Position numbers and translations under genes: made by a program. 64,000 nt of DNA. Source: Psychrobacillus vulpis. GTDB lineage: Bacteria; Bacillota; Bacilli; Bacillales_A; Planococcaceae. Under the pieces are notes generated by a model. The model saw only the letters and a list, made by a program, of their open reading frames with translations. It searched no databases and was not told the origin of the DNA. Below are positions 46,003-51,332 of the stretch, one piece after another. Each line of letters begins with the position of its first letter. Within the stretch, counting starts at the first letter, position 1. Location of the stretch: NCBI RefSeq assembly GCF_006861825.1, contig NZ_VDGI01000001.1:202172-266171 (forward strand), read 5' to 3'.

Positions 46003-46043
46003 AAAAAGAACCTGTCCGAATTTACGGTGCAGGTTCCTTTTTT
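46003..46043. terminator. Bidirectional terminator between asnB and dapL
   Basis: AAAGAACCTG and CAGGTTCCTTT around an 18-base loop, with T-run to the right and A-run to the left. Confidence 0.8.
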
Positions 46044-47169
46044 ATTCATTTCCTATTTTACGAAAATATGATTCTATAAATGGAACAACATAATCAATAA
46101 TAGCTTCATTTGGATTCAACTTGGCATGGTGCAATCCGAACGGAGAGTCTACCCCTGCCCAAAACAACATTCCCGGTATTTCTTGTAGAAAATATCCGAA
46201 ATCTTCGCCAGTCATAGCAGCATCACATAATATGGCGTTAGTATTCACATCTTGTTCAGCAAATGATAAGAATTCATTTGTGAGTGCAGAATCATTTTTA
46301 ACTTGATAGTATGAAGAGCCGTAATTAATTTGAACTTCACAATCAAATGCTATTTTAGTTGCCTTACAAAAAGACTCAATCTTTTCTTTTATGGTAGACA
46401 TCATTTCTGCATTCATCGTTCGAATAGTTCCTTCTAACCGAGCTTGTCCAGAAATAATATTTTGAACAGTACCAGATGTCATTTTTCCAATAGTAACAAC
46501 TGCCGATTCCATCGGATTTACCGACCTACTAACAATTGTTTGTAATTGCAATAAAAGAGTAGCTGCTGCAACAGACATATCTCTTGCTTGATGCGGAAAA
46601 GCGGCATGACCTTCCTTCCCAACTAAGTCTATAAACAGCTCGGATGTATTAGCAAATAACAAACCTGGTCGGGTAGCTATAGTTCCTACTGGATATTCTG
46701 GTGCAATATGAAATGCGTATATTTGATTTGGAATAAGATCTGGTCGCTCTTTTTTCATCCATTCTCTCATCGGTAAAGCACCACCTGGACTTTCCTCAGC
46801 TGGTTGAAAAATAATAACGACATCATCATTAATCGGATTTTCTACTAGACATTTTAATAAACCTAATGCCACTGTCATATGAATATCATGTCCACAAGCA
46901 TGCATTTTCCCACCGTGAACAGACTGACAAGCGAGACCTGTTGACTCTGCTATAGGTAATCCATCTATATCTGTTCTCCAGCCAATAGTTTGTTTAGGTT
47001 GTGTACCTTGTACCTTCACAATAATACCCGTTCTCCAAGTAGTAATAGATAGTCTATCTTGAGGAAGTGCATCAATTTGCTCCAACAAATAAGCATTCGT
47101 TTTCACTTCTTCAAAACCTAACTCCGGTATACGATGCAGATCTCTCCGAATTTCTAATAGGGATTTCAT
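46042..47169 (-). CDS. dapL: N-acetyldiaminopimelate deacetylase
   Basis: 375-residue M20D metallohydrolase (EC 3.5.1.47; YkuR in B. subtilis), last step before LL-DAP in the acetylase branch. Metal site residues: M-H-A-C-G-H-D near residue 89 and P-A-E-E-S-P-G-G near 127; G-H-A-A-F-P in the dimer domain near 190; G-E-D-F-G-Y-F near 325 and the terminal H-H-A. It lies 11 bases after dapH on the same strand. M20D amidohydrolases can act on other N-acyl compounds, but pairing with dapH makes this assignment firm. Confidence 0.92.
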   Translation of the reverse strand: MKSLLEIRRDLHRIPELGFEEVKTNAYLLEQIDALPQDRLSITTWRTGIIVKVQGTQPKQTIGWRTDIDGLPIAESTGLACQSVHGGKMHACGHDIHMTVALGLLKCLVENPINDDVVIIFQPAEESPGGALPMREWMKKERPDLIPNQIYAFHIAPEYPVGTIATRPGLLFANTSELFIDLVGKEGHAAFPHQARDMSVAAATLLLQLQTIVSRSVNPMESAVVTIGKMTSGTVQNIISGQARLEGTIRTMNAEMMSTIKEKIESFCKATKIAFDCEVQINYGSSYYQVKNDSALTNEFLSFAEQDVNTNAILCDAAMTGEDFGYFLQEIPGMLFWAGVDSPFGLHHAKLNPNEAIIDYVVPFIESYFRKIGNE

Positions 47170-47180
47170 ATAGCACCTTC

Positions 47181-47894
47181 TTATAATTGACGTAGTTCTT
47201 GCATAATTTCCGTTTTAGATCTAGTCTGATCATCAATTTCTTTAATAATTTTTGCCGGTGTTCCAGCAACTACTGTATATGGGGGAACATCCTTCGTTAC
47301 TACTGCTCCAGCAGCAACAACAGCTCCTTTACCTACTTTACATCCTTCTAAAACAACTGCGTTCGCACCAATCAGTACATCATCTTCAATAATAACTGGC
47401 ATTGCAGACGGTGGTTCAATAACACCTGCTAGGACAGCTCCAGCTCCGATATGACAGTTCTTACCTACCGTAGCACGACCTCCAAGAATCGCCCCCATGT
47501 CAATCATCGAACCTTCACCAATAACAGCACCTATATTAATGACAGCACCTAACATAATAATACTATTATCGCCAATACTCACTTGATCCCGAATAACAGC
47601 TCCTGGTTCGATACGTGCATTAATTCCCTTCGTATCTAATAGTGGAATCGCTGAATTTCGACTTTCATTCTCTACTACTATATCCTCGATTACATCCTTG
47701 TTTTCATTTAGGACTGGTTCAATTTCAGACCATTCTCCGAATAAAACAAGTGAATTTCCTTCTCCAAATACTTTTGTATTTTCTCCAAAATAAAGGCTCT
47801 CAATTCCTTTTCCTTTTATGTACACCTTTACTTGTGTTGTTTTTTTTGCATGTTGAATATAAGAAATAATTTCATACGCGTCTAATTGTTTCAC
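47181..47894 (-). CDS. dapH: Tetrahydrodipicolinate N-acetyltransferase
   Basis: 237-residue left-handed beta-helix acetyltransferase (EC 2.3.1.89; YkuQ in B. subtilis). N-terminal DapH_N domain ([10 protein letters not shown]) and hexapeptide repeats from about residue 90 to 210, with P-G-A-V-I-R-D and [11 protein letters not shown]. Start GTG 47894 behind AGGGGG. With dapL it forms an operon for lysine and DAP. The ddh gene at 991 provides an alternative one-step route. Confidence 0.94.
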
Positions 47895-48311
47895 AATCCA
47901 TACCCCCTAAAAAATATGTGCTAATTGTACAGTAATTTTTATAAAAAATCACGAATTTATATACATTTTTTGATATTTAATTGAAAAAAAAGTTATTTCA
48001 GGCTGAGGATAAGAATTATATTTATAATACCCATATCTGAAATACAAATACTTTAAAGTATTAACTGCTTATACAAACTCTACTGTTTCCCATTCCAAGC
48101 TACAATTTTATCTTTTGCAAATATCGACAACATTTGTCGAATTATCAGAAAATACAGAAAAAAGGTTGTAAATTAAGTTAGGAAAAGTATAATAATGTTA
48201 ATCTTCTATTTGATATGACATTAACTCCAATGTTTTACATTTCATTTGATAATGAAAGCGCTATCACATCAATTAGGAGGTAAGAAAATAACAGTTTTTG
48301 GGGGGAGAAAG
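47895..48311. other. Intergenic region between dapH and the TAXI gene
   Basis: 417 bases. I see no lysine riboswitch or T-box before dapH. A short perfect palindrome CGACAA-CAT-TTGTCG lies at 48125-48139. A candidate promoter for the rightward gene is TTGTAA (48166-48171) and TATAAT (48188-48193), spacer 16. The ribosome binding site GGGGGGAG is at 48300-48307. An in-frame extension from 48246 has no support. Confidence 0.6.
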
Positions 48312-49310
48312 TTGAGGAAAAATCTGTTCAGGTTTACGACTGTACTTCTTAGTATACTGTTTTTATTGACCGCATGTAGTGGAGACAAGACCAATATTGC
48401 GATAGGACCTCCTGCGAGCGAGACAAATTCGGTTTCCAAAATTATCTTGGGGGCATATGGGCTTGAGGACGGCGACTATAACGAATATCAAGAAGGTTTT
48501 GGGGACGCTGCTGATGGTGTACAGGATGGTAACATCGACATTTCAATTGGAATTTTAGGACTTCCTGCTGCAAGTATTGAAAGTTTGCAAGCATCTGTTG
48601 GTGACGTTGTAATGATTAGTCTCTCTGACGATGCAATTGCAAAGATTGAAGAAAGCAGTGGGTATAGAAGGCACACAATTCCTAAGGACACATACGATTT
48701 TCTAGAGTCGGATATTGAAACGGTTACGGCATATGCCATCCTTATGGGTAATACCGATACAATCGATGAAGAACTAGGTTATGAGCTGGCAAAAATAATG
48801 ATTGAAAAGGCTAATGAAAACACCCATGCTCAAGCTAAACAAATGATTTTAGAAAATGCTTTGCGAGGTGCGGAAGGTCTTCCAATCCATCCGGGAGCTA
48901 AACGTTATTATGAGGAACAAGGTTTGACAGTGAATAATCTTGTTGCTGAGATAACCGCAAAGGATAGTAGCCGGAAGAGTGAATTTATTCTTGGTACGGG
49001 CAGTCAGGGTGGTACTTACTATCCACTCGGGGGTGAAATGGCAAGCATTTGGAACAAATATTTAGATGGCGTTAACGTTACGAACACGGAAACTGGAGCA
49101 TCTGTGGAAAACTTATCAAGCATTCGTGACGGTCATATGGATTTAGGAATGACAGTACATGTCCCAGCATTACAAGCAGTAAATGGAGAGGCTTCCTTTG
49201 AAGGAAATGAAGTTCCAAATGCGGCATTTATTGGACATATTTATCCTGAAGTTATTCAAATTGTTACTCGTGAAAAAAGTGGTATTAAAAGCTTAGATGA
49301 TTTGAAATAA
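48312..49310 (+). CDS. TRAP transporter TAXI-family solute-binding lipoprotein with swapped halves (circularly permuted)
   Basis: 332 residues from TTG 48312 behind GGGGGGAG. A lipoprotein signal peptide ends in L-L-T-A-C (Cys22). The normal TAXI order is N-half (G-T-G-x-x-G-T-Y-Y-P-L-G-G ... S-x-x-D-L-K-G-K-K) then C-half (V-A-I-G-P-P-x-S ... H-P-G-A-x-x-Y-Y). Here residues ~28-210 are the C-half (I-A-I-G-P-P-A-S-E to H-P-G-A-K-R-Y-Y-E-E-Q-G), then a linker (~211-224), then residues 225-332 are the N-half, which stops at S-L-D-D-L-K. Nearly every part of one TAXI domain is present once, in permuted order. The TRAP permease follows 45 bases downstream. Confidence 0.85.
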   Translation: MRKNLFRFTTVLLSILFLLTACSGDKTNIAIGPPASETNSVSKIILGAYGLEDGDYNEYQEGFGDAADGVQDGNIDISIGILGLPAASIESLQASVGDVVMISLSDDAIAKIEESSGYRRHTIPKDTYDFLESDIETVTAYAILMGNTDTIDEELGYELAKIMIEKANENTHAQAKQMILENALRGAEGLPIHPGAKRYYEEQGLTVNNLVAEITAKDSSRKSEFILGTGSQGGTYYPLGGEMASIWNKYLDGVNVTNTETGASVENLSSIRDGHMDLGMTVHVPALQAVNGEASFEGNEVPNAAFIGHIYPEVIQIVTREKSGIKSLDDLK

Positions 49311-49355
49311 AACTTCAAAGAACAAAAAACTCTATATTGAATGAGAGGTGGGCAA

Positions 49356-51332
49356 ATGCGTGATCAGCAAACAGTTGATGCACAAGAGATTTTAGAAAAA
49401 TACGATAAAGAAAACCAATTTCGTACTAATATTGGTAAATGGGCATGGGTTGTAACATTATTAGGGGTTTCTCTCACTGTATTTCATTTATATACCGCGT
49501 ATTTCGGTACGCTTCCTACTCAAAAGCAAGGTGCCGTTCATTTAGGAACTGCACTTGGGGTTATCTTTCTTTTGTATCCTTTTAAAAAAGGTATGCAAAA
49601 AGTACAGAAAACAGTGCCATGGTATGATATTTTACTTGCCTTTACTGCAATGTATGTAACATATCATAAAATCATTTTCTTTGATTCAATTCTGCAAAGT
49701 CGAATTTCTGGTTATGCTATTCCTGATGTCATCATTTCAGTTCTAGGTATACTTCTCGTGCTTGAAGCTACTAGGAGAACTGTTGGCTTACCAATTGTTA
49801 TCGTGGCGGTAGTAGCAATGCTTTATGCAATTTTCGGAAATTTTGTACCTACACAAATCCTTTCACATCCTGGCTTTTCAGTTGATAGAACAGCGACAAC
49901 TCTTTGGTATAAAGAGAGTGGCGTGTTCGGAACTCCGGTTCAAATCTCAGCGAAATTTATTTTCCTATTTCTATTTTTTGGGGTAATGCTCGTACAAACA
50001 AATATTGGAAAGTTCTTCAATGACCTCGCATTTGCATTAACTGGTCGCTATACAGGTGGAACAGCAAAAACGGCAGTAGTAGCAAGTGCTTTACAAGGAA
50101 CTGTCTCTGGTAGCTCTGTTGGTAATACAGTTGCAACTGGATCCTTTACGATTCCGATGATGAAGAAAGCTGGGTTCAAACCTGAATTTGCAGGGGCAAC
50201 AGAAGCAGCCGCATCAACCGGAGGGCAAATTATGCCACCTATGATGGGGGCCGCTGCTTTTATCATGATGGAGTATTTGGGAGTTTCATATGGGGTAATT
50301 ATGTTAGCGGCTGTTATTCCAGCCATCCTCTATTTCACAGGTATTTTCATAGGAACGCATTTTGAGGCAAAAAGGTTAAAAATATTTGGTTTACCTAAAT
50401 CTCAATTACCATCCTTTAGAAAACTTTTAAAGAGAAATTGGTTTATGCTTCTTCCATTATTCGTTATCATTTCAACGATAATGTATGGTTTTACCCCGCA
50501 GCGTGCGGCCCTTTTTGGGATCATCTCTGCATTTTTAGTTAGCCTTATCCGAAAAGAAACAAGAATGTCGTTAAAAAAGACGGTAAACGTTCTAGAGCAA
50601 GGTACGAGAGTAGCACTCCCAGTCATAGCTGCTGTAGCTACTGCTGGGGTCATTGCAGGCGTCGTAAGTATGACGGGACTTGGTTCAAAATTTGCTGCAG
50701 GAGTTATTGCATTATCAAACGGTTATCTAATTCTTGCGCTCATTTTCACTATGATTGCATGCCTTGTTTTAGGAATGGGATTACCTACAACGGCAAACTA
50801 TGTCGTGACAGCAACCATTGCTGCTCCAGTACTTATCAATGAATTCGGAGTAGCTCCAATAGCTGCCCATATGTTCGTCTTCTATTTCGGAATCGCTGCT
50901 GATATTACTCCGCCAGTATGCTTAGCTGCATATGCTGGTGCTGGAATTGCAGGAGCCAATCCATTTAAAACTGGAATGAATGCAGTAAAGTTAGCTATTG
51001 CAGCATTTATAGTTCCTTATATTTTTATATACAACCCAATTTTAGTCATGGTAGATGTTGAACCATTTATGTTAGTGTTCTCAGTAGTTGCTGCTCTAAT
51101 CGGTATGATTGCTGTTAGCAGCTCCATGATTGGATACTTTATACGAAATTCGAGAATTTGGGAAAGGTTTGTCTTATTTGGAGCAGGTATTATGCTCATT
51201 GTACCTGAAATCGTAAGCACCTTGATCGGAGCTGTTCTGATTGTAGCAATTTGGTTTATCCAAAAACAACGTACAGAAGATGAAGATGAATATGAATTGG
51301 AAAGTTCATCTACAAGCCAAGTTTTATCTTAA
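49356..51332 (+). CDS. TRAP transporter fused permease (DctQ-DctM type, TAXI-associated)
   Basis: 658 residues, about 16-18 membrane segments: a DctQ-like N-terminal part (to ~190) fused to a DctM large subunit. Family motifs: G-T-V-S-G-S-S-V-G-N-T-V-A-T-G near residue 250, E-A-A-A-S-T-G-G-Q-I-M-P-P near 283, and the C-terminal counterpart G-M-G-L-P-T-T-A-N-Y near 472 with D-I-T-P-P-V. ATG 49356 follows AGAGGTGGG. It appears intact, which makes the unusual binding protein upstream more interesting. Substrate unknown (many TAXI systems carry organic or amino acids). Confidence 0.92.
   Translation: MRDQQTVDAQEILEKYDKENQFRTNIGKWAWVVTLLGVSLTVFHLYTAYFGTLPTQKQGAVHLGTALGVIFLLYPFKKGMQKVQKTVPWYDILLAFTAMYVTYHKIIFFDSILQSRISGYAIPDVIISVLGILLVLEATRRTVGLPIVIVAVVAMLYAIFGNFVPTQILSHPGFSVDRTATTLWYKESGVFGTPVQISAKFIFLFLFFGVMLVQTNIGKFFNDLAFALTGRYTGGTAKTAVVASALQGTVSGSSVGNTVATGSFTIPMMKKAGFKPEFAGATEAAASTGGQIMPPMMGAAAFIMMEYLGVSYGVIMLAAVIPAILYFTGIFIGTHFEAKRLKIFGLPKSQLPSFRKLLKRNWFMLLPLFVIISTIMYGFTPQRAALFGIISAFLVSLIRKETRMSLKKTVNVLEQGTRVALPVIAAVATAGVIAGVVSMTGLGSKFAAGVIALSNGYLILALIFTMIACLVLGMGLPTTANYVVTATIAAPVLINEFGVAPIAAHMFVFYFGIAADITPPVCLAAYAGAGIAGANPFKTGMNAVKLAIAAFIVPYIFIYNPILVMVDVEPFMLVFSVVAALIGMIAVSSSMIGYFIRNSRIWERFVLFGAGIMLIVPEIVSTLIGAVLIVAIWFIQKQRTEDEDEYELESSSTSQVLS

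Follow-up and report, generated by a model that had tools for sequence, protein, structure and literature searches.

The best-studied relatives of the protein described here are the TAXI solute-binding proteins VcGluP (VC0430; 8s4j) and TtGluBP (1us4/1us5). According to the work on VcGluP, the ligands known to date for TAXI proteins are glutamate, glutamine and 2-oxoglutarate (PMC11574862). In VcGluP itself, domain 1 is built from residues 29-115 and 268-328, domain 2 from residues 132-254, and two hinge strands (116-131 and 255-267) join them; the protein was placed in Cluster F rather than in Type I/Cluster B, and was predicted to be unanchored, with a Sec/SPI signal (PMC11574862). A circular permutation has been reported for another kind of binding protein, TpMglB-2 (Tp0684) of Treponema pallidum, a glucose-binding lipoprotein for which a 'Type Ic' class was proposed and whose authors raise adaptation to tethering (PMC4990184). 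With its other fold and transporter type, TpMglB-2 was the only other natural permuted solute-binding protein found in the literature that we searched. The word stem 'permut' is absent from two recent TAXI papers, one of them the paper on the TAXI-GltS protein BP0403 (PMC12344293). A search of titles and the beginnings of abstracts returned no description of a permuted TAXI protein, and an earlier mention is possible, for example in Roden et al. 2023 (Biol. Chem. 404:715), which reportedly concerns membrane-anchored TAXI proteins.

Chain order, hinge and lipid anchor

The open reading frame at 48312-49310 on the plus strand of the window (the whole 64-kb stretch of DNA that was analysed) encodes 332 amino acids, begins with a TTG codon preceded by a G-rich Shine-Dalgarno-like stretch and ends at SLDDLK. 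Its product scored 210.8 bits against PF16868 of Pfam (cut-off 27) and 222.1 bits against TIGR02122 of NCBIfam (cut-off 84.35), each time in two stretches. A lipoprotein signal is followed by PF16868 positions 112-289, a short linker and PF16868 positions 1-111; on the DNA the profile matches run from 48390 to 48923 (112-289) and then from 48990 to 49310 (1-111, into the stop codon). A phmmer search of solved TAXI structures gave the same swapped pair, with residues 213-332 aligned to residues 8-130 of 1us4 and residues 29-205 to residues 134-312, both halves being homologous to solved TAXI proteins over nearly their whole length. The protein thus scores above the curated family cut-offs, it carries an N-terminal secretion and lipid-anchoring signal by a lipobox-like pattern of our own making, and its gene is linked to a fused TRAP permease, while its chain departs from the usual lobe 1 - lobe 2 - lobe 1 order (profile 1 to 289). 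Judged from its sequence, it is a TAXI protein by homology and not by chain order.

The first-pass annotation of this DNA had proposed this reading frame with its start and stop, the exchanged blocks, and a permuted TAXI protein that is complete and has a lipoprotein signal of its own; the profile and phmmer searches agree with it on all of these points. The features are collected in Table 1. Block B holds most of lobe 2, the second hinge crossing and the end of lobe 1, and block A holds lobe 1 and the first hinge crossing before it ends with SLDDLK inside lobe 2.

Table 1. Features of the permuted TAXI locus (positions in the window)
Feature	Position	Strand	Evidence or remark
cre-like site TGAAAGCGCTATCA	48253..48266	+	about 45 bp upstream of the start codon; sole perfect match in the window
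Lipoprotein signal peptide (predicted)	48312..48374	+	TTG start; lipobox LTAC; lipobox-like pattern in 82/82 permuted proteins
Cys22, likely lipidated, with very short tether ahead of the first strand	48375..48392	+	Cys-to-[IV]A[IV]GP spacing
Block B, residues 28-205, conventional C-terminal part	48393..48926	+	profile and phmmer matches
Linker uniting the native C- and N-termini	48927..48974	+	13-17 residues in 82/82; modelled confidently
Block A, residues 222-332, conventional N-terminal part	48975..49307	+	profile and phmmer matches; model
TRAP transporter fused permease (TIGR02123, DctM), binding-protein partner	49341..51332	+	profile match

The break at SLDDLK corresponds to about residue 144 of VcGluP (position 116 of the 8s4j chain plus 28) and the start of block B to about residue 148, so both ends fall in domain 2, past the hinge. 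The first-pass annotation had the break at the right place and described it as the hinge; the position stands and the label does not, as the cut lies just beyond the hinge strand. Because the cut is past the hinge in lobe 2, both hinge crossings should be kept and the lobes exchange places in the chain. Aligned to VcGluP, the permuted chain passes from domain 2 through one hinge strand to domain 1 and through the other back to domain 2, with no hinge strand cut. We also considered a cut within the hinge that would lose one crossing and rejected it, since the cut maps past the hinge strand and the structural model has two long strands where the crossings are expected.

That model, made with AlphaFold2 from 39 of 79 permuted proteins (the window and the scan of named genomes described below), reached a pLDDT of 91.2 and a pTM of 0.85. 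In the mature chain two long strands (114-126 and 283-299) lie where the crossings are expected, the last helix is short and the linker was modelled with high confidence. In an order-bound Foldseek search the best match was a TAXI-type protein over 208 columns with a TM of 0.50, a result that is expected of a permutation and proves none. Behind it came HisG enzymes and binding proteins for phosphate, phosphonate, nickel and other ligands, aligned over at least 300 columns at 6.8-13.2 Å; they may be read as lobes exchanged, a reading that proves nothing. A control model of a normal-order TAXI protein built from three sequences was poor (pLDDT 55.3).

Equivalents of VcGluP S40 (in 38/39), Y45, S75, E125 and G203 are kept in the permuted proteins. 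The positions of Q93, H123 and Y200 are occupied by V, Y and G, in permuted and near normal-order proteins alike. Across the 13 mapped ligand sites the majority residue differs between the two groups only at G156 and M201, and the residue sets overlap. At the G156 site the near normal proteins have G in 7/10 (T or A in the other 3) against E, T or A in 39/39 permuted proteins; at the M201 site L is mostly found in the former and I in the latter.

All 82 permuted proteins have a lipobox-like cysteine near the first strand. The distance from this cysteine to the [IV]A[IV]GP motif is 6-18 residues (median 7), six residues separating LTAC from IAIGPPASE in the window protein, as against 23-40 residues to the GTGS-type motif in the 13 of 19 normal-order proteins where it could be measured; the two motifs lie at slightly different strand depths, which alters the contrast by a few residues only. 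The lipobox pattern was found in all 29 gammaproteobacterial permuted proteins, whereas 12 of 14 other TAXI-like loci in four gammaproteobacterial genomes (14 fetched out of 21 among the matches listed) were without it. Of the remaining two, one has a lipobox pattern in a signal that also holds an ordinary cleavage site and the other is without its start. The anchor is thus kept where the sampled kin lack one. In four loci of Oceanisphaera, Oceanimonas and Zobellella (L129-L131 and L133) the lipobox cysteine is followed directly by Asp, and these lipoproteins would presumably stay at the inner membrane.

Distribution, selection and origin

The first-pass annotation had suggested looking for the same order in related genomes, and the order was found there. 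Among 61 close genomes, 10 (own included) carry it in a near-full-length single alignment: eight belong to the genus, one to a second genus of the family (72% identity) and one to another family (65%). A genome of a further family (G040) has the usual order at 56-59% identity. Within the order, 36 of 261 genomes (own included) and 3 of 19 genera are carriers. A scan of the genomes of named species, with seven aligned permuted proteins as query and two short peptide patterns as seeds, gave 81 relatives, of which 80 loci were kept, and block B precedes block A in one reading frame in 78 of 80. Recurrence on this scale excludes chance. The carrier counts are lower bounds, because the scan was seeded in this way and confined to 80 loci. 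The two exceptions are L135, a decayed fragment, and L136, a distant protein in which only block B was found. The former, at L135:4900-5250 in Marinobacter sp. ELB17, is a permuted gene split over reading frames and the sole Marinobacter among these loci.

Among the carriers are Psychrobacillus, Sporosarcina, Siminovitchia, Oceanobacillus, Bhargavaea, Virgibacillus, Lentibacillus, Paucisalibacillus and Ornithinibacillus and, among Gammaproteobacteria of families that include Halomonadaceae and Aeromonadaceae, Halomonas, Vreelandella, Billgrantia, Bisbaumannia, Oceanisphaera, Oceanimonas, Zobellella and one Pseudomonas. Oceanobacillus damuensis PT-20 has two permuted operons in one genome (L075 and L079). 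The spread is patchy, since among 321 genomes drawn evenly from the class to which Oceanimonas belongs the centre genome alone had the permease at the set limit, and a phylum draw had it in 1 of 249 genomes, namely the window's own. The first reading would have been overturned if the permuted order were the usual one of the family; the usual order is the other one. In 299 genomes of the class every row had that other order among the matches listed, which did not include the known permuted rows, so that further permutation events in the family may exist. Phage or plasmid spread was considered and set aside, as IMG/VR gave no relative with single-protein patterns that reach close relatives only, and there was no plasmid hit at E 1e-30; more distant copies on mobile elements may exist.

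For a tree, the halves were put in the usual order in 47 of the 82 permuted proteins and aligned with 19 normal ones. All 47 permuted rows fall on one branch (100/99), with one order change, and the 15 rows from Gammaproteobacteria (100/99) lie within a group that has Bacillaceae among its members (95/96). The outgroup is not clean, and the nearest normal proteins are grouped weakly (89/51). The permeases, taken as an independent marker, sort in the same manner. Of 30 permease loci, the 7 with at least 65% identity have a permuted partner and the 21 below it a normal-order one, including the ten nearest (54-62% identity); in the other 2, only one TAXI half lies inside the flank. From one clade with nested Gammaproteobacteria we infer, on these sequences, a single permutation in Bacilli and a later horizontal transfer to Gammaproteobacteria. 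The route may have been the one proposed in the first-pass annotation, a tandem duplication that then lost its outer halves.

Gene pairs, compared over both halves and the linker, gave dN/dS values of 0.012-0.067 in 13 of 14 cases; the last was not calculable (dS saturated), and several further dS values among the 14 exceed 1. In 12 of the 14 pairs the dN of the linker is higher than that of both halves. Purifying selection thus acts on both halves. The linker length in Table 1 is that between matched blocks, one alanine of the linker is invariant in 39/39 aligned rows, and the protein ends 0-3 residues past block A in 82/82. The permuted TAXI protein is a real, old, selected and widespread variant. 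An assembly error or pseudogene is ruled out by the independent genomes with the permuted order and by the dN/dS values. The choice that the first reading had left between a functional protein and a recent rearrangement with loss of function is settled, by the clade, dN/dS, the linker and the operon, towards an old gene under selection.

Operon, neighbours and candidate ligand

The downstream permease, noted as intact from the start, scored 734.2 bits against TIGR02123 (cut-off 320.65), and an orthologue lies downstream in 77 of 78 permuted loci. In Virgibacillus sp. MSJ-26 the permuted gene (L087:4370-5368) has no adjacent permease and is followed by a reading frame of 996 amino acids. We asked whether the permease had been rebuilt along with the permutation and rejected the idea: only 2 columns strictly tell the permuted clade (81 permeases) apart from the nearest normal ones (10), and the lengths are alike.

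The cre-like site upstream of the gene (Table 1) was sought with a presumed cre consensus; one perfect match was observed in 64 kb against 0.09 expected, and at least one occurred in 8 of 100 shuffles. Outside Gammaproteobacteria, 18 of 51 loci have a perfect site and 32 of 51 a site with at most one mismatch (L141 and L142 left out), the latter being met in 0-2.5% of simple shuffles; a perfect site was found in 0 of 29 gammaproteobacterial loci. These sites suggest that in many Bacilli the system serves carbon-source uptake under catabolite control.

Neighbouring genes vary across Bacilli. Psychrobacillus-type loci have asparagine synthase, M20 amidohydrolase and DapH genes nearby; in the window a divergent M20 amidohydrolase and DapH (diaminopimelate pathway) occupy 46042-47894, and this arrangement is kept in 6/6 such loci. 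In Siminovitchia fordii, S. thermophila and Bacillus norwichensis (L069, L071, L076) a second, normal-order TAXI operon stands upstream, with TAXI, DUF1850 and a fused permease about 42% identical (Pfam on the L069 genes). A sigma-54 activator and a CT_C_D carboxyltransferase-domain protein lie downstream in L069, L070, L072 and L076 (Pfam on L069 only), the latter a possible link to 5-oxoproline use.

In Gammaproteobacteria, at least one of HglS (2-oxoadipate dioxygenase/decarboxylase), 2-aminoadipate transaminase and YdiJ (D-2-hydroxyglutarate dehydrogenase) is encoded in the fetched flank of 25 of 29 loci, in several arrangements, and a LysR-type gene cluster lies near 27 of the 29. All 11 cluster members scanned (4 of 17 HglS, 5 of 14 transaminase, 2 of 5 YdiJ) passed their equivalog cut-offs; a YdiJ piece in L104, cut by the end of the locus, scored 653.5, under the cut-off of 1350. 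Four genomes have one or two HglS genes each, one of which lies 0.4-3.1 kb from the permuted gene, and among the matches listed for these genomes no other TAXI gene is within 100 kb of an HglS gene. 2-Aminoadipate has one methylene more than glutamate. The substrate of HglS in lysine catabolism is 2-oxoadipate (PMC7286885). None of the three enzymes is encoded in the 49 Bacilli loci, and HglS was found in 0 of 21 genomes (the window's own and 20 relatives); 2-aminoadipate was therefore rejected as the ligand in the window's own genome and the idea is limited to Gammaproteobacteria. The ligand of the permuted proteins is probably a glutamate-like amino or keto acid, and for the gammaproteobacterial branch a testable candidate is gained.

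Explanations and comparison with known systems

We consider it highly likely that the gene encodes a working lipid-anchored TAXI binding protein, permuted once in an ancestor of some of the Bacilli, that feeds the TRAP fused permease encoded next to it downstream. The ordinary chain of lobe 1, hinge, lobe 2, hinge, lobe 1 would have become lobe 2, hinge, lobe 1, hinge, lobe 2 by a cut between the hinge and the first core strand of lobe 2, with the old ends joined by the short linker. As the hinge strands and the ligand cleft would both be kept, the Venus-flytrap motion should be unchanged, and the protein would still bind its ligand and dock onto the permease. What would have moved is the leash: the anchor, which in the ordinary protein is on lobe 1 and has 23-40 residues of slack, would sit on lobe 2 with a slack of mostly 6-9, and may thereby affect delivery.

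If the blocks had been shuffled in this genome only, through assembly error, recent rearrangement or pseudogene formation, the product would be dead. One sequence could not exclude this, and Marinobacter sp. ELB17 does carry a decayed copy (L135), but the permuted order in the named loci and in 36 genomes of the order, strong purifying selection and a single old clade leave that explanation next to no chance. It is also very improbable that the family began with the permuted order and that the usual TAXI order is derived from it. Tree counts alone cannot separate gain from loss; yet six solved TAXI sequences were matched in both halves, with the usual order in the four for which alignments are listed, and the matches listed for the 299 genomes of the class as well as the nearest sisters (L144-L153) are in normal order. 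A functional protein that acts mainly as a membrane-anchored sensor or scavenger, no longer chiefly in transport, deserves a little more weight and is still unlikely: delivery from so short a leash on lobe 2 would be unusual and L087 is without an adjacent permease, whereas an orthologous permease follows nearly every permuted gene in two phyla, the seemingly horizontally acquired gammaproteobacterial loci included, and catabolic genes or a cre-like site lie nearby in many loci.

The gammaproteobacterial ligand is less certain than the transport role. Our best guess, which we hold with modest confidence, is 2-aminoadipate. A real possibility, clearly short of even chances, is that these proteins take 2-oxoadipate, glutamate or 5-oxoproline and that the neighbouring enzymes are there by coincidence or handle a related compound. 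The known TAXI ligands speak for it (PMC11574862), as do the CT_C_D-domain protein near the operon in four loci (one of which was tested by Pfam) and the missing aminoadipate genes in all 49 Bacilli loci. The HglS, transaminase and YdiJ equivalog matches above cut-off, found in the full-length representatives tested and in several arrangements, speak against it, and so do the replaced Q93, H123 and Y200, by which the pocket differs from a known glutamate pocket. Going further, we can only tentatively picture a TAXI-TRAP subfamily of two phyla in which the leash, shifted from one lobe to the pseudo-symmetric position on the other and made very short, gives membrane-held delivery and which, passed with its permease to Gram-negatives, stays anchored there and serves 2-aminoadipate; as a whole this falls somewhat below an even chance.

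Like the permuted protein, VcGluP and TtGluBP are homologous in both halves, share several ligand residues with it and have a fused TRAP permease adjacent; the permuted protein differs from them in its swapped blocks, its anchor on lobe 2 and its short leash. The normal-order Bacilli proteins L144-L153 (for example that of G040) are closer: their halves are 49-64% and their permeases 54-62% identical to those of the window, and they have the same majority residue at 11 of the 13 mapped ligand sites, but they keep the usual order, with 26-40 residues between the cysteine and the first-strand motif. A single permutation event that can be placed on a tree, unpermuted sisters with nearly the same pocket and permease, and occurrence in two phyla make this a clean natural experiment, in which one can ask whether ligand handover to a TRAP permease depends on where the leash sits and how long it is. 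The case also shows why software that presumes a single chain order gives such proteins too low a score.

BP0403 is likewise a lipoprotein TAXI of unusual architecture, but there extra domains stand ahead of a standard TAXI domain and the partner is GltS (PMC12344293). The likeness to TpMglB-2 is of another kind. Both are natural circular permutations of a tethered binding protein, and TpMglB-2 keeps ligand binding (PMC4990184). The Type I fold related to MglB that marks Type Ic is not that of the window protein, whose sequence belongs to TAXI. TpMglB-2 has that fold, serves an ABC transporter, is cut at another site and gains a fourth hinge crossing (PMC4990184), whereas in the permuted TAXI protein the number of hinge crossings should be unchanged.
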